64,000 nt of DNA from Limisphaerales bacterium (GTDB taxonomy: Bacteria; Verrucomicrobiota; Verrucomicrobiia; Limisphaerales; AAA164-E04), in contig JAMASS010000004.1 in the NCBI GenBank assembly GCA_024761205.1, positions 124,001 to 188,000 on the forward strand, in the 5' to 3' direction. Under the pieces are notes generated by a model. It was not told the DNA's origin. It ran no database searches and saw nothing but the letters and a program-made list of their open reading frames with translations. Below, in pieces: positions 3,560-25,334 of the stretch (position 1 is the first letter of the stretch; the number at the start of each line of letters is the position of its first letter). The position numbers were made by a program, and so were the translations under genes.

Positions 3560-6007
3560 ATGATTACTTTGTTCATGCATCAATCTCGACTGACCGGACT
3601 CATTGTCCTGGCCATTCTTGGCTTAGTCCCCAATGCCAGCAGTGCAACCTCCATCCGCATTCTCCCTGAACGAATCGTCCTCAATGGCACAACCGCGCAA
3701 CAACAAGTCCTTGTCCAGCGATTTGAAGAGGACAGCACCCGTGAACAAATCACGGAGGATATCCTCTGGAAGGTCTCACCTGATAATATCCTGAGAATCG
3801 AAGGCAACGTTTTGACACCTCTGGGAACTGGCAAAGCCACGCTGAGCGCCGCCGTTGGCGACCTGGCGACTGACGTCGAAGTGGTCATTCGCGACTTCGA
3901 TCAGACAAGCAACTGGAGTTTTCGGAACCACGTGCAGCCGATACTCGCCAAATTCGGATGCAGCGCCGGCGCCTGTCATGGCGCGGCGGCGGGAAAAAAC
4001 GGTTTCAAGTTGTCACTTCGCGGCTATGACGACCAAGGTGATTTCATCGCCCTCACGCGGCACGCCCTAGGGAGACGGATCATTCCCCAAGATCCCGGCC
4101 GGAGTTTGCTCCTCACCAAACCCACGGGGGCCATCCCCCACAAAGGCGGTAAACGATTCGAGATCGACTCGCACGAATATCGCGTCATTTCCCAATGGAT
4201 CGCGAACGGCTTCCCCAGTCCCCAAGAAACCGACACACGCATTGAACGCATCGATATCACACCAGCTCAAGTCAGTCTAAAACCAGGTCTCTCCCAACAA
4301 ATCCTCGTTCGTGCCTATTTCGATAACGGCCGCTATGAAGACGTGACGCGTTGGGCGAAGTTTTCTTCAGCAAATGAGTCCGTCGTTTGTGTGGACGAAA
4401 ATGGTCGAGTCGAGATCATTGGCTACGGAGAAGGCGCCATCACCGCTTGGTATCTCAGCCGCATCGCTACCATGACCATTACCGCTCCCTTCGAATCTTC
4501 CAACGCTCTCCCAGAAATCGCGGCAAGAGAGCCCAAGAATCTCATCGATCGGGAAATTCAAAAGAAACTCGCCCAACTTAGGATACCATCGTCAACACAG
4601 TCAACGGACAGTCAGTTCCTGCGGCGCGTTTTCCTGAACACATTGGGCATTTTACCCAGCATCGAAGAAGCCAAGGCATTTCTCGATGATCCAAGCCCCG
4701 CCAAACGATCAGCCCTCATCACACAGATACTTAAGCGCCCTGAATTCGTCGACTATTGGAGCTATCAGTGGTCGGATCTCCTCCTGGTCCAAAGCAAACG
4801 ATTCGAGCCCTCAGCGATGTGGGCTTACTACCGTTGGATTCGTGACCAAGTCGCTCGCAACACGCCGTGGGATGATTTCGTCCGGCAGATCGTCACCGCG
4901 CAAGGCAGCAACCTGACCAACGGCGCCGCCAACTTCTTCGTCCTTCACGACGATCCTAAAATCATGGCGGAAACCACCACCCAGGCATTCCTTGGGATGT
5001 CGATTAATTGCGCCAAATGCCACAACCATCCTCTGGAGAAATGGACCAACGACCAGTATTTTCAAATGGCCAATCTCTTCGCCCGGATTCGCACAAAGAA
5101 CGGCGCGGCCAGTAACGAGAGCATCATTTTCACGGCGCTGAGCGGCGACGTGGTTCAACCACTGACCGGAAGGAGCCAACCGCCCACGCCACTCGACGGC
5201 CGCCCCATGGCGGAGAACGATTCGCGAGATCGGCGCCAACATCTGGCAGACTGGTTGGTCGCCCCCGAAAACCCTTACTTCAGTCGAGCGATCGCCAACC
5301 GCGTTTGGACAAACTTTATGGGAGTGGGCCTCGTCGAAAAAATTGACGATCTGCGGGCCACGAATCCGGCCAGCAACGAAAGCCTCCTGACCGGACTCGG
5401 AAACTACCTGGCGGAAAATGATTTCGACCTGAAAGCACTGATTCGGCTGATTCTCGAATCGGACGCTTATCAACGCAACAGTCAACCAAACGGTATCAAC
5501 AAAGCCGATTCCCGGTTCTATTCTCGCTACTACCCGCGGCGGCTCATGGCCGAGGTGATATTGGATGCATTTTCTCAGGTCACTGAGGTGCCAACCAAGT
5601 TCAGCGGCTTCCCCCAAGGCTGGCGCGCGCTCCAACTACCCGATTCAAACATTGAATCTTACTTCCTCAGTTCCTTTGGCCGAGCGGATCGCGCTCAGAC
5701 CTGCGCCTGCGAACGAACCGATGAACCGAGCGTGGCTCAAGTGCTTCACATTGCGAATGGCAAAACGTTGAACCAAAAACTCAGCACTCCCAACAACCGC
5801 ATCGGTCAAGAGCTGGAAGCCGGCGTGCCCCTCCTCACCATGGTCGATAACCTTTACCTCAGCGCCCTCAGCCGCTACCCCACCCCGGCGGAACGAAGCC
5901 GCATTCAGAAACTCCTGGATGAAGCCGGCCCGTCCGAACGTCGAGAGGCTTTGGAAGACGTCTACTGGGCCGTTCTCAGCAGCCGCGAGTTCCTTTTCAG
6001 CCACTGA
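3560..6007 (+). CDS. PSD1/DUF1549-DUF1553 cytochrome-type protein
   Basis: 815 residues. The start at 3560 gives a Sec signal peptide (MITLFMHQSRLTGLIVLAIL...NASSA); the frame is open much further upstream but that part overlaps the DUF1501 gene. Order: Ig-like/BIG2-type region (about 25-105); a haem-like region with CSAGACH (residue about 134, C-x4-C-H as is usual in this family); a second BIG2-like stretch; DUF1549 (about 330-510) containing the classical CAKCH motif near residue 484; and DUF1553/PSD1 (about 545-790). Probably a periplasmic multi-haem-type protein. It sits between DUF1501 and the WD40 cytochrome gene with short spacers, so co-transcription is likely. The function of the family is not experimentally settled. 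Confidence 0.9.
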   Translation: MITLFMHQSRLTGLIVLAILGLVPNASSATSIRILPERIVLNGTTAQQQVLVQRFEEDSTREQITEDILWKVSPDNILRIEGNVLTPLGTGKATLSAAVGDLATDVEVVIRDFDQTSNWSFRNHVQPILAKFGCSAGACHGAAAGKNGFKLSLRGYDDQGDFIALTRHALGRRIIPQDPGRSLLLTKPTGAIPHKGGKRFEIDSHEYRVISQWIANGFPSPQETDTRIERIDITPAQVSLKPGLSQQILVRAYFDNGRYEDVTRWAKFSSANESVVCVDENGRVEIIGYGEGAITAWYLSRIATMTITAPFESSNALPEIAAREPKNLIDREIQKKLAQLRIPSSTQSTDSQFLRRVFLNTLGILPSIEEAKAFLDDPSPAKRSALITQILKRPEFVDYWSYQWSDLLLVQSKRFEPSAMWAYYRWIRDQVARNTPWDDFVRQIVTAQGSNLTNGAANFFVLHDDPKIMAETTTQAFLGMSINCAKCHNHPLEKWTNDQYFQMANLFARIRTKNGAASNESIIFTALSGDVVQPLTGRSQPPTPLDGRPMAENDSRDRRQHLADWLVAPENPYFSRAIANRVWTNFMGVGLVEKIDDLRATNPASNESLLTGLGNYLAENDFDLKALIRLILESDAYQRNSQPNGINKADSRFYSRYYPRRLMAEVILDAFSQVTEVPTKFSGFPQGWRALQLPDSNIESYFLSSFGRADRAQTCACERTDEPSVAQVLHIANGKTLNQKLSTPNNRIGQELEAGVPLLTMVDNLYLSALSRYPTPAERSRIQKLLDEAGPSERREALEDVYWAVLSSREFLFSH

Positions 6008-6039: not shown

Positions 6040-9000
6040 ATGAAGCGTTTTCTTACTCTCTCCAACACGCTACTCATAGCGTTTGTCGCGCTTGCGGTTT
6101 CACGCACTCCCTCCGCTTGGGCCGAGCCAGGAGCGAATCCTTACGCCCCCATCGACGCACTTTTCGCCAAGCACTGCCTGGATTGCCACAGCCACGATGA
6201 TCCGGATGCTCAGCTCAACCTTGAGACCTACGAAACACTCATCAAAGGAGGGCAAAATGGTTCCCCCATCTTGAAACGCGATAGTGCACGCAGCCCGTTG
6301 GTTCGGCTCCTGGTAGGCTTCACCGAAACCAAGGGCAAGAAGCGGATCATGCCACCGGGACGGCGCGAGAAACTGACCACCGAAGAGATTAACCTGGTCC
6401 GCACGTGGATCGATCTCGGAGCGCCCGGACCGCCGGCTGGATGGCGTCGTCCTGTCAATCTCATCATTCCAGAAATCGCAGTGACCGGCGACGCACCGAA
6501 CCCCGCCCAAGCCTTAGCTTACTCCCCGGTTCGTACGCTTCTCGCCATCGGCCGTTATCGTCAGGTTGATCTCTTAGACACACAGCGTCGCGTCGTCGTC
6601 AAATGCCTTGACGGCCATCGGGGGAACGTCAACGGTCTGGTCTTCAGCTCCGACGGTGCCACTCTCTACAGTGCCGCCGGGGAACCCGGACTTTCCGGCG
6701 AGATAAAGAAGTGGAACACCACGACCGGCGATCTCCTTCAGACAATGTCTGGGCACACCGACTCCATCTATTCACTAGCCCTCAGTCCGGACGGTTCCCT
6801 TTTGGCCACTGGGAGTTATGACCAGCAAATCCTCCTCTGGAACACCGCAGAAGGCACTCGCAGCCGGACGTTGTCAGGACACCAAGGCGCCGTCTTCGAT
6901 CTCGACTTCCGACCCGACGGGAAGATCTTAGCCAGTGCCAGCGCAGACCGGACTATCAAACTTTGGAACGTGACTAAAGGCGAACGGACCGACACATTGT
7001 CACAACCGCTGAAGGCACAGCACACCGTCTTGTTTAGTCAAGACGGCCGGCGTTTGTACGCTGGGGGCGTGGACAATCGGATTCGTGTCTGGGAGATCAG
7101 CAAGTCTGCCAAGGAAACCACCAACCCTATCCTTAAAACCCGCTTCGCTCACGAAGGGACTATCCTCAAATTGTCCCTGTCTCAAAACGGGAAAACCATC
7201 GTCTCAACCGCTGATGACCGAACTGTCAAACTGTGGGACATTGAGCCCCTCAAAGAACGATTCCTCTTGGAAACCCAACCTGACTGGAGCCCCGCTATCG
7301 TCTTCTTCGACGAAGACAAGAAAATTGCCGTCGGAAGGCTAGATGGAACGATCGGCTACTACCAAAGCCAAGACGGCAAAGTAGCCTTACCGCCAAAACC
7401 TGAGATTGCCAGGCTTTCCCCTTTTGGTGTGCAACGAGGCATCCTAACCCACATTCGGGTCGAAGGCAAGAACCTCGGAAATATCGAATCGATCAATTTT
7501 GATTCCCCCGCCCTTCACGCGGCCGTCATCCCCGAAGAGTCCACTGAATCCGCCGGTCTCGAATTGTTAGTCTTTTCACCCGAGTCCCTGGAACTAGGAA
7601 AGTATCCCCTCACCATTAAGACGGCACATGGCGCCAGCAACAAGGTGTCTCTTCACGTGGATAATCTGCCACAAGTGGCGGAGATCAAGGAAACGAAAGG
7701 GGCCCAACAACTCAGCCAGTTGCCGGTTAATGTCTGGGGAAGCATCACCGAAAATGGTCAGGTCGACCGGTATCGATTCGAGGCAGAGGCAGGTCAAGGA
7801 CTCGTCTTCGACGTGGCCGCCAAGCAGCTGGGATCCAAGGGTGACCTGGTCATCACGCTGAACCACAGCAACGGCACCCCCATCGCCTCAAGCCGCGGGT
7901 TTGATCAATCCATCGACCCGCTCCTTTTTCATCGATTCAAAGACAGCGGAACCTACGAGCTCACCGTTGGAGACAGTTTTCTTCAAGCCTCACCGGATCA
8001 TTTCTATCGCCTTTCCATTGGCGGGTTCCCCTACGTGACCGATGTGATGCCCCGTATGATCACCAAGGGCCAAGATACAAAACTCCGCTTGATTGGATTC
8101 AATTTGAGCGAGAACGATCATGCCGAAGTTGCCGTAGAGAGTAGCTCCACCCACACGGTCAAGCTAGACCGCAACCGCTACCGTTTCCGAACGGCACCCA
8201 AGATTGCTCTCTCCGAATGGGAAGCCATCACCGAAGCCGAGTCGAACAACGCCATCAATCAGGCCACACAAATTCAGATCGGCCAGAATGCCACCGGCAG
8301 AATTTGGTCGACTGATTCTGGCTGCACTGACGTTGATTACTTCCGTTTCTCAGCTCAGAAAGACCAGCAACTCATCATCGAAACCATCGCGAATCAACTC
8401 GGGTCGCCCATTGACACCCGCATCGAAATCCTCACCGCTTCCGGACAGCCGATCCAACGACTACTCCTCGAAGCCGTTCGTGACACCGCCATCACCTTCC
8501 GCCCCATCACCTCGACTGCCAGAGGCGCGCGTTTGGAAAACTGGGAGGAAATGTCGATCAACGATTATCTTTACATGAATGGAGAAGTCGTCAAACTCTT
8601 CCTCGCACCCCGAGGGCCCGATTCGAGTTGGGATTTCTACCCGGCCTCCGGAACCCGGCGAAACTACTTCGACACCACAGCCACCGCCCATGCTAATTTT
8701 GAGCCCTGCTACATCGTTCGACCGCACGCCCCCGGAACCAGCCTCGTGGCCAACGGCCTCCCACAATTCCCGCTTTTCTACGAAAACGACGATCATTCCG
8801 AGGCCGGAAAAGGTCGCGATTCCCGTCTCTATTTCACCGCTCCCGAATCTGGTGACTATGTGGTCCGAGTGGTCGACACTCGCAGCCAAGCAAGTCCCCG
8901 CTTTGTCTATCATCTTCTCGTCCGCGAAGAGCAACCCGATTTTGAAGTGACGATTTCGCCGCAAAACCCTTCGATCAATCGAGGCAGCGGTCGCTCCTTT

Positions 9001-9723
9001 GCCATCAATCGCCAACGCATCGATGGCTACGATGGCGAGATTGAAATTGAGATCGGCGGATTGCCTCATGGGGTCATAGCTTCGAGCCCCATCGTTATTG
9101 AGGCGGGCCACCACCGGGCAACGGGGACGCTCTTTGTCGATGATTCCGTAACTTCAATTTCGGCACTAGAAAGCCTCAATATCGAAGTCACCGCTACCGC
9201 AAGAATCGGCAGCTCCACTACGATCCGTCAGGTGAAGAACTTCGGCAGGATCAAAATCGCTGACGAACCGAAGTTGTTTGTCACGCTGAGCCCTATCTCA
9301 GGACAACCATCGACCATCCCGACGAGCCTCAAGCCATCATTAAATGGGACGGGTTCCGCAGCAGGCGCTGATTCCCCGATTCCCGTCATCACGATATCAC
9401 CCGGCACGACGGTGCCTGCTCGGTTGACCGTCCGCCGCAACGGCCATAAAGAACGCATCACCTTTTCCATCAGTAATCTCCCTCACGGGGTTATCGTCGA
9501 CAACATCGGCTTGAACGGGGTCCTCATGCCGCCGGATGTGTCTGAACGAAAAGTCTTTCTCACCGCGGACGATTGGGTCGAAGAAACCGAACGCCTCTGC
9601 CATGCCATTGCCAACGAAGCCGGCGGCCAAACCTCACGCCCTGTTCTTTTGCGAGTTGTCAAACCAAGCACACTCACCGCCGCCAATCAAAAGGATAACT
9701 CAGGAATACGCAGAATACACTGA
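6040..9723 (+). CDS. PSCyt1 cytochrome / WD40 repeat / pre-peptidase C-terminal domain protein
   Basis: 1227 residues with a signal peptide (MKRFLTLSNTLLIAFVALAV...AWA). Residues about 30-130 are a planctomycete-type cytochrome domain (PSCyt1) with CLDCH and the MPPGRREKLT...W block. Residues about 165-430 hold six or seven WD40 repeats (LLQTMSGHTDSIYSLALSPD, TIKLWNV, TVKLWDI). After this come IPT-like and PPC (pre-peptidase C-terminal-like) beta domains, for example VDRYRFEAEAGQGLVFDV near 570 and VDYFRFSAQKDQQLIIETIA near 765. The protein probably sits in the periplasm with a beta-propeller docking face. It is the last gene of the DUF1501-PSD1 cluster. A single open frame of this length argues against general base-calling error in the assembly. 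Confidence 0.88.
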   Translation: MKRFLTLSNTLLIAFVALAVSRTPSAWAEPGANPYAPIDALFAKHCLDCHSHDDPDAQLNLETYETLIKGGQNGSPILKRDSARSPLVRLLVGFTETKGKKRIMPPGRREKLTTEEINLVRTWIDLGAPGPPAGWRRPVNLIIPEIAVTGDAPNPAQALAYSPVRTLLAIGRYRQVDLLDTQRRVVVKCLDGHRGNVNGLVFSSDGATLYSAAGEPGLSGEIKKWNTTTGDLLQTMSGHTDSIYSLALSPDGSLLATGSYDQQILLWNTAEGTRSRTLSGHQGAVFDLDFRPDGKILASASADRTIKLWNVTKGERTDTLSQPLKAQHTVLFSQDGRRLYAGGVDNRIRVWEISKSAKETTNPILKTRFAHEGTILKLSLSQNGKTIVSTADDRTVKLWDIEPLKERFLLETQPDWSPAIVFFDEDKKIAVGRLDGTIGYYQSQDGKVALPPKPEIARLSPFGVQRGILTHIRVEGKNLGNIESINFDSPALHAAVIPEESTESAGLELLVFSPESLELGKYPLTIKTAHGASNKVSLHVDNLPQVAEIKETKGAQQLSQLPVNVWGSITENGQVDRYRFEAEAGQGLVFDVAAKQLGSKGDLVITLNHSNGTPIASSRGFDQSIDPLLFHRFKDSGTYELTVGDSFLQASPDHFYRLSIGGFPYVTDVMPRMITKGQDTKLRLIGFNLSENDHAEVAVESSSTHTVKLDRNRYRFRTAPKIALSEWEAITEAESNNAINQATQIQIGQNATGRIWSTDSGCTDVDYFRFSAQKDQQLIIETIANQLGSPIDTRIEILTASGQPIQRLLLEAVRDTAITFRPITSTARGARLENWEEMSINDYLYMNGEVVKLFLAPRGPDSSWDFYPASGTRRNYFDTTATAHANFEPCYIVRPHAPGTSLVANGLPQFPLFYENDDHSEAGKGRDSRLYFTAPESGDYVVRVVDTRSQASPRFVYHLLVREEQPDFEVTISPQNPSINRGSGRSFAINRQRIDGYDGEIEIEIGGLPHGVIASSPIVIEAGHHRATGTLFVDDSVTSISALESLNIEVTATARIGSSTTIRQVKNFGRIKIADEPKLFVTLSPISGQPSTIPTSLKPSLNGTGSAAGADSPIPVITISPGTTVPARLTVRRNGHKERITFSISNLPHGVIVDNIGLNGVLMPPDVSERKVFLTADDWVEETERLCHAIANEAGGQTSRPVLLRVVKPSTLTAANQKDNSGIRRIH

Positions 9724-21367: not shown

Positions 21368-22201
21368 TCAGCGAGACTGTTGGTAAAATTTCTTCTCCCA
21401 CTGCTTCTGTTTCCCATCGGCATCCTTCAACCAAGGTGTTCGCGCAGCGAGCCTTAAGAGCGCCTTCACCCAACGATCATGAGGCGAACGCATGGGCCGG
21501 ATGAAATCGACGAATAGCACGACTCGACAACCATCCGTATCATTCCAAACCTCATGATTATAGGTATCGTCAAAAATCAGGCTCTCGCCTTCTCGCCAGG
21601 TGCACATCTTGGTGCCAATCCGGATCCGACACTGTTCAGCAGGTTCGGGCACAATCAATCCCAGATGGTATCGCAGCACTCCATTGAACGCACCGCGATG
21701 AGCGGGAATGTGTTTCCGGGGTGAAAGGATCGAAAAAAAAGCCGTTTGTGTCTCTGGAATTTCTGCCAGGGCGGCCATCGTTTTGGGACATTGTTCCTGG
21801 CTCTTCTGACAATCCATGCCGGGGCCGATCAAGAAGAAGGTCTTCCACTGATTGTCTTGAGTAATGGTCCCCGCCTCAGCCAAGATTTCATGAAAATTCG
21901 GCATTGCCTCCCGGCGCGACATCAGCACATCCAGCTCCTCCCTTATCCCACACCACTGTGCCTCAACCTTAGCCGCCCAGGGAAAGATTTCGTTTTCGTA
22001 AACCGCCACATCCTCATGGATCGACCGGCTCGCTACGAACCACTCCACAGCATCGGCCAACTTCCGACTGAGCCTGACACCAATGTGCTGCGGAGGTTTG
22101 AGCCGATACCGACGGCTGGCCAGCGGGTTATCAAGACCAATCTCCGGACCTGCCGGATTTTTAGAGCTCTCCTGATTTGTAATGACCTTGTTACTCATCA
22201 A
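21368..22201 (-). CDS. Aspartyl/asparaginyl beta-hydroxylase family dioxygenase
   Basis: 277 residues. The catalytic domain spans about 110-240: TQTAFFSILSPRKHIPAHRG contains the first Fe(II)-binding His and its following R-G, GVLRYHLGLIVP the strand after it, and SLIFDDTYNHEVWNDTDGCR the distal His followed by RVVLFVDFIRP, where an Arg binds 2-oxoglutarate. This is the Asp_Arg_Hydrox/LpxO-like family, which hydroxylates protein Asp/Asn or lipid A acyl chains using O2 and 2-oxoglutarate. Substrate unknown. No membrane helix is evident, unlike LpxO. It is the first gene of a pair with thiS. Confidence 0.85.
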   Translation of the reverse strand: MMSNKVITNQESSKNPAGPEIGLDNPLASRRYRLKPPQHIGVRLSRKLADAVEWFVASRSIHEDVAVYENEIFPWAAKVEAQWCGIREELDVLMSRREAMPNFHEILAEAGTITQDNQWKTFFLIGPGMDCQKSQEQCPKTMAALAEIPETQTAFFSILSPRKHIPAHRGAFNGVLRYHLGLIVPEPAEQCRIRIGTKMCTWREGESLIFDDTYNHEVWNDTDGCRVVLFVDFIRPMRSPHDRWVKALLRLAARTPWLKDADGKQKQWEKKFYQQSR

Positions 22202-22444: not shown

Positions 22445-22520
22445 GCGAGTGTAGCTCAGTTGGTAGAGCGTCACCTTGCCAAGGTGAATGTCGAGAGTTC
22501 GAATCTCTTCACTCGCTCCA
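22445..22520 (+). tRNA. tRNA-Gly (anticodon GCC)
   Basis: A 76-base cloverleaf: acceptor GCGAGTG (22445-22451) pairs with CACTCGC (22510-22516), the D-loop reads AGCTCAGTTGGTAGAGC, the anticodon arm CACCTTGCCAAGGTG carries GCC, and the T arm GAGAGTTCGAATCTCTT. CCA is encoded at 22518-22520. A hairpin with a T-run follows at 22651. Confidence 0.97.
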
Positions 22521-22764: not shown

Positions 22765-23778
22765 TTAAGAGGTCGGGACCTCAGCAATCGTCTTTAGGAT
22801 TCGGGAGCATATCTGGTAGGGGTCACCCTGTGAGTTCGGACGACGATCTTCCAGGTAACCTTTGTAGCCATTGTTCACAAAGCTGTGAGGCACACGGATG
22901 GACGCGCCACGATCAGCCACACCCCATGAGAATTTATCGATCGATTGGGTCTCGTGCAACCCGGTGAGCCGCATGTGGTTTTCCGGACCATAGGCGGCAA
23001 TGTGCTCGTCCTTGTTCTTCTCAAAGGTAGCAATCAAAGCCTTGAAGTAGTCTTCGCCACCGACTTCACGCATGTGCTTGGTGGAGAAGTTGCAGTGCAT
23101 ACCGGACCCGTTCCAATCACCGAGGAACGGCTTGCAGTGCCACTCAACATCGACTTCGTATTTCTCACAGAGGCGCATCAGGATGTATCGAGCCGTCCAC
23201 ATGTCGTCAGCACACCTCTTGGAGCCTTTGGCGAAGATTTGGAATTCCCATTGTCCCTTAGCCACCTCGGCGTTGATGCCTTCGTGATTGATTCCAGCAG
23301 CCAAGCAAAGGTCGAGATGCTTGTCAACGATCTCGCGGGCAATGGAGCCAACATTGGCATAACCAACGCCGGTGTAGTATTCGCCCTGAGGATTCGGGAA
23401 GCCTTCGCGTGGCCACCCAAGTGGTCGTTTGTCATGGAATAAGAAATACTCCTGCTCTAAACCAAGCCACGCATCGGGATCATCAATAATAGTGGCGCGC
23501 ATGTTGGAAGGATGAGGCGCACCGTCCGGCAGGGTGACTTCGCACATCACCAAAAAGGCATTGTCACCGCGGCCAAGATCAGGGTAGAACGCGACAGGTT
23601 TCAGCATACAATCAGAATCACTTCCATCCGCCTGTTGAGTGGAACTACCATCGAATCCCCACCGAGGACAATCCTCGAGCGATTTAGGCACTTTTGTGGC
23701 AATTCGAGTCTTTCCACGGAGGTTTGGTACTGGCTGATAACCATCCAGCCAAAGGTATTCGAGCTTATATTTAGGCAT
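22765..23778 (-). CDS. glnA: Glutamine synthetase, type II (eukaryote-like)
   Basis: 337 residues, the short length of GSII rather than the 440-470 of GSI. Characteristic blocks are LEYLWLDGYQPVPNLRGKTR at the N-terminus, PRWGFDGSSTQQADGSDSDC, the Mg-binding GLEQEYFLF, GINAEVAKGQWEFQI, KPFLGDWNGSGMHCNFSTKH and the C-terminal IRVPHSFVNNGYKGYLEDRR. It joins ammonia to glutamate with ATP in the cytosol. GSII is not regulated by the adenylylation tyrosine of GSI. Monocistronic: it has its own terminator at 22703-22736, and a 12-base perfect palindrome lies 42 bases upstream of its start. GSII genes occur in several bacterial groups including Verrucomicrobia. Confidence 0.95.
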   Translation of the reverse strand: MPKYKLEYLWLDGYQPVPNLRGKTRIATKVPKSLEDCPRWGFDGSSTQQADGSDSDCMLKPVAFYPDLGRGDNAFLVMCEVTLPDGAPHPSNMRATIIDDPDAWLGLEQEYFLFHDKRPLGWPREGFPNPQGEYYTGVGYANVGSIAREIVDKHLDLCLAAGINHEGINAEVAKGQWEFQIFAKGSKRCADDMWTARYILMRLCEKYEVDVEWHCKPFLGDWNGSGMHCNFSTKHMREVGGEDYFKALIATFEKNKDEHIAAYGPENHMRLTGLHETQSIDKFSWGVADRGASIRVPHSFVNNGYKGYLEDRRPNSQGDPYQICSRILKTIAEVPTS

Positions 23779-23819
23779 ATGTTTCGTGTTCTCTAAGGGT
23801 AATCAGTTGAATAACGGAT

Positions 23820-23831
23820 GGCTTTTAAGCC
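23820..23831. promoter_or_regulatory. Palindrome upstream of glutamine synthetase
   Basis: GGCTTTTAAGCC is a perfect 12-base palindrome 42 bases before the glnA start codon, in the position of an operator or of a symmetric promoter element. No known regulator site matches. Confidence 0.3.
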
Positions 23832-24078
23832 CTAATTCCCCAACAAAGTCAACCACAAGCAAACAGCGTGCCGATTAGCGTTGGCCGGCGAACGACCTAC
23901 CCCCGGAGGGAGTCGGCAAACCGCGGGCGCCTCTCGTTTGCAGACTGAGACAGAGTGGATCCACAGAATTAAACTCATCATGCAAATCCCGTTCATCTTA
24001 CCTAACCGACTTCTCCCGAAATCAATCAACCTTTGCGATTTGGGGAAGCGCCCGCTAGCCTTCCAGTCGGATAGAGAC

Positions 24079-24504
24079 ATGAGACCCGTCAAAGAAACCA
24101 AGCGCGCATCCGTTCACGTCGGTTACGACGGACGGGTGCACAAGCGTTTTTTAGGGCCCTTCGCCGAACTACGCTACCAAAACGAAGTTCGGACCTTGCG
24201 CTATCTGCAGAACAAGGGGTGCCCGTTCGTTCCTCGGCTTATCCAAGAGGATCCCAAGAAACTCTACATTGTCACTTCAAACTGCGGCACCATCGTGGAG
24301 AGCATCAGCGACGAACGCCTGAGAGCCTTGTTTGAAGAATTGGAATCCTTCGGTGTTCGGCACGATGATCCCTTTGCCCGCAACGTCACCTACAACCGAC
24401 ATCTCGGCCGGTTCTGTATCATCGATTTTGAATTCGCCACGACTTTGGAGACAGGAGAAGGGTTGACAAGCGCCGATCTCGAACGTCTCCAGAAAGGAAC
24501 ATGA
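24079..24504 (+). CDS. Minimal protein-kinase-like (RIO/LPS-kinase-like) protein
   Basis: 141 residues from the ATG at 24079; the frame is open to 23881 but that part is not protein-like. It shows a compressed kinase fold: DGRVHKRFLGPFAELRYQNE (candidate ATP-binding Lys and helix-C Glu), KLYIVTSNCG hinge, then the catalytic loop HDDPFARNVTYN (H-x-D...N) and metal-binding IDFEFAT. This is about half a normal kinase domain and lacks a substrate lobe, as in small Bud32/RIO/WaaP relatives. Its last four bases overlap the PP2C start (ATGA), so kinase-like and phosphatase proteins are translationally coupled and probably act on the same target (inference). Activity is unproven. Confidence 0.7.
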   Translation: MRPVKETKRASVHVGYDGRVHKRFLGPFAELRYQNEVRTLRYLQNKGCPFVPRLIQEDPKKLYIVTSNCGTIVESISDERLRALFEELESFGVRHDDPFARNVTYNRHLGRFCIIDFEFATTLETGEGLTSADLERLQKGT

Positions 24505-25334
24505 CGTCTCCAAATTCTTCGCCCCGGCGCCTTGCCTGGTCCGCACAAACCCATCAAGGACGCGTTCGCCGCAATAATGAGGATGCCTTCCTCGGCTTGA
24601 GATTTGACCGCCGAGAATTGACCTACCTCGGCAAGGAAGGCGAAGCGGTCATCAATGAGCACGAATTTATTTTCGCGGTCAGCGATGGCATGGGCGGCGA
24701 AAACGCCGGAGAGTTTGCCAGCAAGGTTGTTCTACAAACGGTCATCAATCTTGTTTCACGAGAATTCCACCAAAAAACGCAAGAAGAGCACCTTAAGCCC
24801 GGGAAATTGCTCTACGATTTTTGTCAGCGCATCCACGAGCACGCCCGTGACGTGTCACGCTACTACGAAGAATGCCGCGGCATGGGAGCTACTCTGAGCC
24901 TGTGCTGGCTACAAAAGGGCCTCGCCCATATCGCCCACTTGGGAGACAGCCGTATCTACTATCTCCCCCAGGACGGACAAATCCAGCAGCTGACCGATGA
25001 CCACACGGTCACAGGACGGCTCGTTCGGGAAGGTTGTCTCTCAGAACAAGAAGCCAGAAGGCACCCTCGCCGCCATCAACTCGAACGATCTATCGGATGC
25101 CACCCCGATCCAGTGCAACCACAAATCATTGCCACACCTTTTATTCCAGGCGATCACTTCCTCATCTGCACGGACGGCATCACGGATGGGGTATGGAATC
25201 ACGGCATCGAAAAGTTTATTCACCATCCGCCACCATATTTGGTTGGACTGCCGCCCGCCCAAAGATTGGTCAAAGAAGCTCTAGAAGCCTCCGGGCGGGA
25301 TAATCTCACTGCGTTGGTCCTGAAGGTTCAGTAA
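24501..25334 (+). CDS. PP2C-family serine/threonine phosphatase
   Basis: 277 residues covering one PPM/PP2C domain: QTHQGRVRRNNEDAFLGL (N-terminal Asp motif), FAVSDGMGGENAGEFASK (metal Asp-Gly), GMGATLSLCW, IAHLGDSRIYYLPQDGQIQQ, LICTDGITDGVW and the final ASGRDNLTALVLKV with the conserved Asp. All main Mn/Mg ligands appear present. A 30-residue insertion (FDRRELTYLGKEGEAVINEH) follows the first motif, as in the PrpC/Stp class. Cytosolic, no membrane segment. It begins inside the stop codon of the kinase-like gene, forming a kinase/phosphatase pair. Confidence 0.93.
   Translation: MTSPNSSPRRLAWSAQTHQGRVRRNNEDAFLGLRFDRRELTYLGKEGEAVINEHEFIFAVSDGMGGENAGEFASKVVLQTVINLVSREFHQKTQEEHLKPGKLLYDFCQRIHEHARDVSRYYEECRGMGATLSLCWLQKGLAHIAHLGDSRIYYLPQDGQIQQLTDDHTVTGRLVREGCLSEQEARRHPRRHQLERSIGCHPDPVQPQIIATPFIPGDHFLICTDGITDGVWNHGIEKFIHHPPPYLVGLPPAQRLVKEALEASGRDNLTALVLKVQ

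Follow-up and report, generated by a model that had tools for sequence, protein, structure and literature searches.

A minimal kinase-fold protein paired with a PP2C phosphatase and tied to type II glutamine synthetase in Verrucomicrobia

The covalent control that GlnE exerts on glutamine synthetase (GS) counts among the founding examples of metabolic regulation: its two active sites, within a single polypeptide, carry out dedicated, opposing modifications of a housekeeping type I enzyme (GSI). Kinase and phosphatase activities dedicated to one metabolic enzyme are also joined in AceK, the isocitrate dehydrogenase kinase/phosphatase, a single bifunctional protein of kinase fold. Neighbouring kinase and PP2C genes are familiar from the PrkC–PrpC and PknB–PstP systems, where the Hanks kinases are full-sized, often membrane receptors, and act on many substrates. 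Small kinase-fold enzymes are represented by ArkI (COG2112/AQ578 family), Rio and Bud32, and a reduced C-lobe is seen in OspG and SteC, which are pathogen effectors of unrelated role; SteC keeps helix αF, which binds substrate.

Here, we describe a locus in a 64,000-nucleotide stretch of a Limisphaerales genome (hereafter the window) in which a kinase-fold protein of only 141 residues, unusually small for a kinase, and a PP2C phosphatase make up a writer/eraser pair. This pairing is real, conserved across many genomes and linked with type II glutamine synthetase (GSII). The pair has the PP2C fold and gene adjacency of PrkC–PrpC and PknB–PstP. Like GlnE it may unite two active sites within a single chain, as its fused members do, and like AceK it would be dedicated to one metabolic enzyme, but its eraser is a separate PP2C domain and its kinase is far smaller than AceK. 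It differs from GlnE in chemistry (phosphate rather than AMP), in its unrelated folds and in the type of GS concerned. The folds of the parts are known; their combination, and their place opposite GlnE, were not found in the literature searched. Full-text searches, mainly of openly available papers, returned no report of the kinase–PP2C pair and no account of GSII control by a bacterial kinase or phosphatase, and a full-text search likewise gave no account of covalent GS control in bacteria that have only GSII and no GlnE.

The kinase–PP2C pair and its glutamine synthetase

The kinase gene (24079–24504, + strand, stop codon included) runs from ATG 24079 to codon 141 at 24499–24501, followed by the stop TGA at 24502–24504. 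Its reading frame stays open upstream as far as TTG 23881, but conservation marks ATG 24079 as the start: in 70/70 kinase loci compared, an ATG aligns there with zero offset. The PP2C gene (24501–25334, + strand, 277 aa) begins at ATG 24501, and the two genes share the ATGA at 24501–24504 that the first-pass annotation of this DNA had pointed out. Divergent from the kinase lies the gene for GSII (22765–23778, − strand, 337 aa), the probable substrate. The region between them (23779–24078) presumably holds divergent promoters; no promoter, terminator or RNA element was recognised in it, and its conservation in a small alignment is mostly at the GSII 5′ coding end. Rfam found nothing across the window but one tRNA (22445–22517, + strand), whose gene sits between that of GSII and an aspartyl/asparaginyl hydroxylase gene (21368–22201, − strand).

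The phosphatase belongs to the PP2C/PPM family (PF13672, PP2C_2, 4.9e-18, 65.9 bits against a cut-off of 24), with the DGMGG, GDSR and GxDN-type core motifs conserved. It scores 173.7 bits against the Stp1/IreP equivalog NF033484, under the cut-off of 230. The fold was seen in a fused relative, whose PP2C domain matches structures of PstP, of Stp1-type enzymes and of tPphA, with a TM to target of 0.82–0.89 in the best 17 matches.

How constant is this pairing? We examined 166 kinase loci, made up of a set of 158 (with 131 distinct kinase sequences) and 8 further ones; some places are represented more than once. In 154 of them PP2C follows the kinase in the same orientation (152/158, together with L184 and L186 of the 8 further). 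Two of the 12 loci without an adjacent PP2C represent one contig end (L028 and L051, genome G097), and the other ten come from ten genomes of family f64. In nine of these PP2C stands divergently beside GSII rather than beside the kinase (L163, L165, L168–L174); in the tenth, G508, it was not found on either side. Kinase and PP2C form one reading frame in 24 loci, 22 of them distinct. Because the two are co-conserved and naturally fused, the coupled writer/eraser pair suggested at first pass is supported, and the gene pair is indeed conserved across genomes.

The most informative part of the locus was missed in that first reading: kinase and PP2C go with one particular glutamine synthetase. Of 286 genomes sampled from the class, 139 carry the kinase, 141 GSII (counted at E<=1e-50) and 138 both (Fisher 1.3e-77, a statistic that ignores phylogeny). 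The number of genomes lacking both is inflated by incomplete assemblies in which two neighbouring genes drop out together, an effect that leaves unlinked pairs untouched. The place of GSII relative to the 139 kinase copies of these 138 genomes varies: it is most often upstream in divergent orientation (102 copies), less often on a different contig (23) or downstream in the orientation of the kinase (10), and for 4 copies it shares the contig at a distance above 5 kb. The 4 include G001 and G481, each a single contig, in which the two genes are 1.1–1.2 Mb apart and both retained. At L067, L068 and L070 GSII lies upstream of the kinase on the same strand. The association thus survives rearrangement. 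Five families (f12, f14, f64, f72 and f74) each include genomes with kinase and GSII as well as genomes with neither; the presence of the two genes has therefore changed together more than once.

The exceptions in the class sample are one kinase-only genome (G425) and three GSII-only genomes (G033, G176 and G503). In G503, which is 99% complete, GSII is 74% identical, and its flanks (about 3 kb and 4 kb on the two sides) contain neither partner. Among 320 genomes sampled from the order, the kinase occurs in 163, GSII in 186 and both in 153, which leaves 10 genomes with the kinase alone and 33 with GSII alone. Of these 33, 26 fall in lineages that have a distant GSII (f2, f53 and genera g89 and g90 of f24), and the rest are mostly incomplete assemblies. 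The distant GSII (59–62% identity) had neither kinase nor PP2C beside it in 12/12 loci examined, with a flank of at most 1.5 kb.

One genome, G520, carries two kinase–PP2C fusions, each next to its own GSII. Its second set (L142) consists of a fusion at 7402–8628 followed by a diverged GSII at 8668–9669, 46% identical to the window GSII; the standard set is also present, and L142 is possibly a specialised paralogous module.

The kinase was found in Verrucomicrobia. A single-sequence search of genome contigs gave 12 loci, all in Verrucomicrobia or groups within, and named relatives include Pedosphaera sp. ARS72 (60%) and Persicirhabdus sediminis (L071, 49%). Among 288 genomes sampled from the phylum there were 52 members of the window's own class, a number that counts the window genome itself, and 4 further, weak matches (E 1e-10 to 6e-4). 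One weak relative outside the class (E 1.1e-10) is the protein of L147 (genome G691, 4635–6002, + strand), which by reading joins a methyltransferase-like N-terminal part to a minimal kinase-like C-terminal one amid glycosyltransferase- and flippase-like ORFs; we take it to be reminiscent of WbdD. No relatives were found on plasmids, and none on viral contigs with the single sequence. A profile search of viral contigs gave one match, L202 (an IMG/VR contig of 52 kb), which also carries GSII and PP2C and is probably a bacterial contig misfiled as viral.

Glutamine synthetases and GlnE in genomes with and without the kinase

The window's own genome has a single PF00120 match, which is GSII, together with one PII and GlnD. 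GlnE was not found in it: the sole PF03710 match (30.4 bits) was rejected as a GlnE candidate because it lies in the ORF of GlnD (PF08335, 3e-35). We compared this genome with 12 hand-picked ones, 2 kinase-bearing and 10 kinase-less. Both kinase-bearing genomes (G001 and G340) have one GS and GlnD and no GlnE. In seven of the ten kinase-less genomes, strong matches of GSI type occur together with a GlnE-like ORF in which PF08335 matches two regions. The three such ORFs retrieved all match GlnE models best, and against PRK11072 (cut-off 487 bits) L219 scores 620.4 and L221 563.7, with L220 under the cut-off at 453.7. The adenylylation-site motif is present in the GSI of 6 of the 7 and was not seen in that of G023; it is absent from the window GSII. 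In two further kinase-less genomes (G336 and G379) the only PF00120 matches are weaker ones in frames of 717–790 aa, whose size is GSIII-like, and in G334 no glutamine synthetase was found. Across the 13 genomes checked, GSI is accompanied by GlnE and the GSII described here by kinase and PP2C, GlnE taking the complementary place in the kinase-less relatives.

These patterns lead us to propose, with a probability of roughly 0.6, that kinase and PP2C are a dedicated phosphorylation/dephosphorylation pair controlling GSII in place of GlnE. We infer the phosphorylation itself and GSII as its substrate, and likewise which residue is modified, that the effect is inhibitory, and that the pair replaced GlnE in evolution.

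A different nitrogen target has to be weighed. The pair might act on the T-loop of PII at the Ser49 position, as in cyanobacteria, with the GSII linkage reflecting nitrogen co-regulation. The PII of this genome (L200, 1480–1818, − strand), which by reading lies beside an ammonium-transporter-like ORF, has the T-loop YRGSEYTV, and we take the Ser of its RGSEY to stand where cyanobacterial PII is phosphorylated. The presence of tPphA among the structural matches of the fused PP2C domain points the same way; PphA dephosphorylates PII, and one report gives the corresponding kinase as unidentified (PMC4285133). However, the PII gene lies elsewhere in the genome (contig C89), whereas kinase and PP2C stay with GSII, and GlnD is present and can modify PII. 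We consider PII an unlikely target.

Fold, catalytic residues and family placement of the kinase

The AlphaFold2 model of the kinase (44-sequence alignment; pLDDT 96.4, pTM 0.89) comprises strands β1–β5, helix C, helix E, strands β6–β9 and a single terminal helix. The chain stops just past the metal-binding Asp, where αF would start, and helices F to I are absent, in agreement with the first-pass description of a protein half the normal size with no obvious substrate lobe. The ATP-binding Lys22 (24142–24144, + strand) is placed in β3 by the model and Glu36 (24184–24186, +) in helix C; the catalytic loop HDDPFARN occupies residues 95–102 (24361–24384, +), and the metal-binding DFE motif beginning at Asp116 (24424–24432, +) forms part of IDFE at 115–118, all as originally read. 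Lys22, Glu36, His95, Asp97, Asn102 and Asp116 are invariant in 44/44 diverse members, the 43 relatives aligning with the window kinase at 46–72% identity. HxDx4N plus DF[EDG] is matched by 130/131 distinct kinase sequences, and the remaining one has DLE, with the Asp kept. Unfused kinases (134 loci) have 124 to 171 aa, with a median of 132.

Because the catalytic residues are invariant in 44/44 members, the 141-residue protein looks like an active kinase. On the same invariance we reject the other suggestion made at first pass, that of a pseudokinase acting as a phosphatase partner. Neither the lack of a kinase fold nor loss of the H-x-D, Asn and metal Asp residues in homologues, which would have spoken against the kinase assignment, was found. 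Thus the kinase fold and the writer/eraser pair of the earlier interpretation are supported, and its pseudokinase alternative is not.

Foldseek ranked ArkI (8yv5, E 8.4e-7), Rio2 and a Kae1–Bud32 fusion best. In a VIA-align comparison of Foldseek's own list, the best 50 entries have Z 12.1–10.1 and rmsd 2.6–5.5 over 112–135 aligned residues (for example Rio2 1tqi: Z 12.0, rmsd 2.9, 121 aligned). The β3 Lys, αC Glu, HxDx4N and metal Asp place the protein in the protein-kinase-like fold superfamily, with a C-lobe that reaches only to β9. In contrast to the kinases of PrkC–PrpC and PknB–PstP, the model lacks the αF–αI of the complete C-lobe of a canonical Hanks (ePK) kinase, and no Pkinase entry (PF00069) is among its Pfam matches at E<=1. 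The Kdo/WaaP family PF06293 matches 26/44 members at E<=0.01; the window kinase scores 21.5 bits against a gathering score of 21.3, in a match confined to residues 83–139. APH (PF01636) matches 43/44 members at E<=0.01 (best 2.1e-9), and the window kinase, at 20.5 bits, is under the gathering score of 23.2. Bud32 TIGR03724 matches 35/44 members at E<=0.01, the window kinase not being one of them, and the genomic context, where a Bud32 would call for KEOPS, is GSII and PP2C. Similarity to ArkI/COG2112, whose hallmark is 2′-phosphorylation of tRNA U47, is structural only, from Foldseek and VIA-align; the genomic context of ArkI is unrelated and its solved chain has about 172 residues.

Could the substrate be RNA or a small molecule, as for ArkI, Kdo kinase or aminoglycoside phosphotransferases, with PP2C regulating the kinase and the GSII link being metabolic? 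PP2Cs of the window type act on phosphoproteins, and PP2C is here a constant partner, even a fused one. The score against the Kdo kinase equivalog NF002475 is 13.4 bits, far under the cut-off of 142. The solved structure nearest by Foldseek is nonetheless that of an RNA kinase, ArkI, which phosphorylates tRNA (PMC9095486), and the Pfam matches, weak as they are, are to Kdo and APH. On balance such a substrate seems improbable to us. Equally improbable is a kinase domain that serves chiefly as a sensor or scaffold by binding nucleotide or GSII, with a separate Hanks-type kinase phosphorylating GSII and PP2C acting on the product, since the missing substrate lobe would suit this role but residues invariant in 44/44 members would be needless for a pure scaffold.

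Proposed mechanism, candidate phosphosite and significance

How might the pair control GSII? In our preferred reading, that of a dedicated pair, the kinase would add phosphate to GSII, most plausibly to a Ser or Thr at or near the active site, and lower its activity, and PP2C would remove it; together they would play for GSII the part that the adenylyltransferase/adenylyl-removase GlnE plays for GSI. A candidate phosphosite is Thr272 in RLTGLHET of the glutamate flap (22963–22965, − strand), which we take to correspond to Thr301 of mammalian GS, the first residue of the flap in the human sequence. Being conserved in every GSII compared (110/110 of the kinase-type clade and 13/13 distant ones), Thr272 is only a candidate. 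One paper (PMC6536897) describes phosphorylation of mammalian GS on Thr301 within the glutamate flap (T301–N308), with activity lowered, and gives the mammalian phosphosites as absent from the prokaryotic forms compared there.

No Ser or Thr cleanly marking the kinase-type GSII was found between 110 distinct kinase-type sequences, which include a few from genomes without a detected kinase (e.g. L161), and the 13 distant ones. Thr233 and Tyr308 differ from the distant GSII but also occur in other GSII, such as those of yeast or Streptomyces, and Ser186 is missing in 5/110, in some cases from kinase-bearing genomes. In the second GSII of G520 most sites that differ from the distant GSII are changed.

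Because the kinase lacks helices F–I, we propose that the surface on which its substrate docks would probably come from GSII, from PP2C or from both. The reduced C-lobes of the effectors offer an analogy: SteC constructs truncated before αF lost substrate phosphorylation and OspG requires a bound partner for activity (PMC13395416). A kinase ending after β9 need not, by this analogy, be active alone. A model of a kinase–PP2C fusion is confident for both domains (pLDDT 92.4, pTM 0.78); its output is without inter-domain error and therefore allows no conclusion on PP2C completing the kinase lobe. More tentatively, and at somewhat less than even odds, the class would use phosphorylation instead of adenylylation as its covalent GS switch, by means of a kinase whose chain stops at the metal-binding Asp and which would rely on the GSII ring or on PP2C for a substrate lobe; it would be among the smallest self-standing protein kinases known.

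In conclusion, the kinase and phosphatase proposed here to be dedicated to GSII, which Verrucomicrobiae-type genomes conserve and often fuse, make the control of GSII directly testable with three small proteins, and the proposed reading predicts mutual exclusion of GlnE and the kinase. The locus presents a writer/eraser pair whose target genomics points out, and a natural opportunity to ask what minimum of the kinase fold suffices for catalysis.
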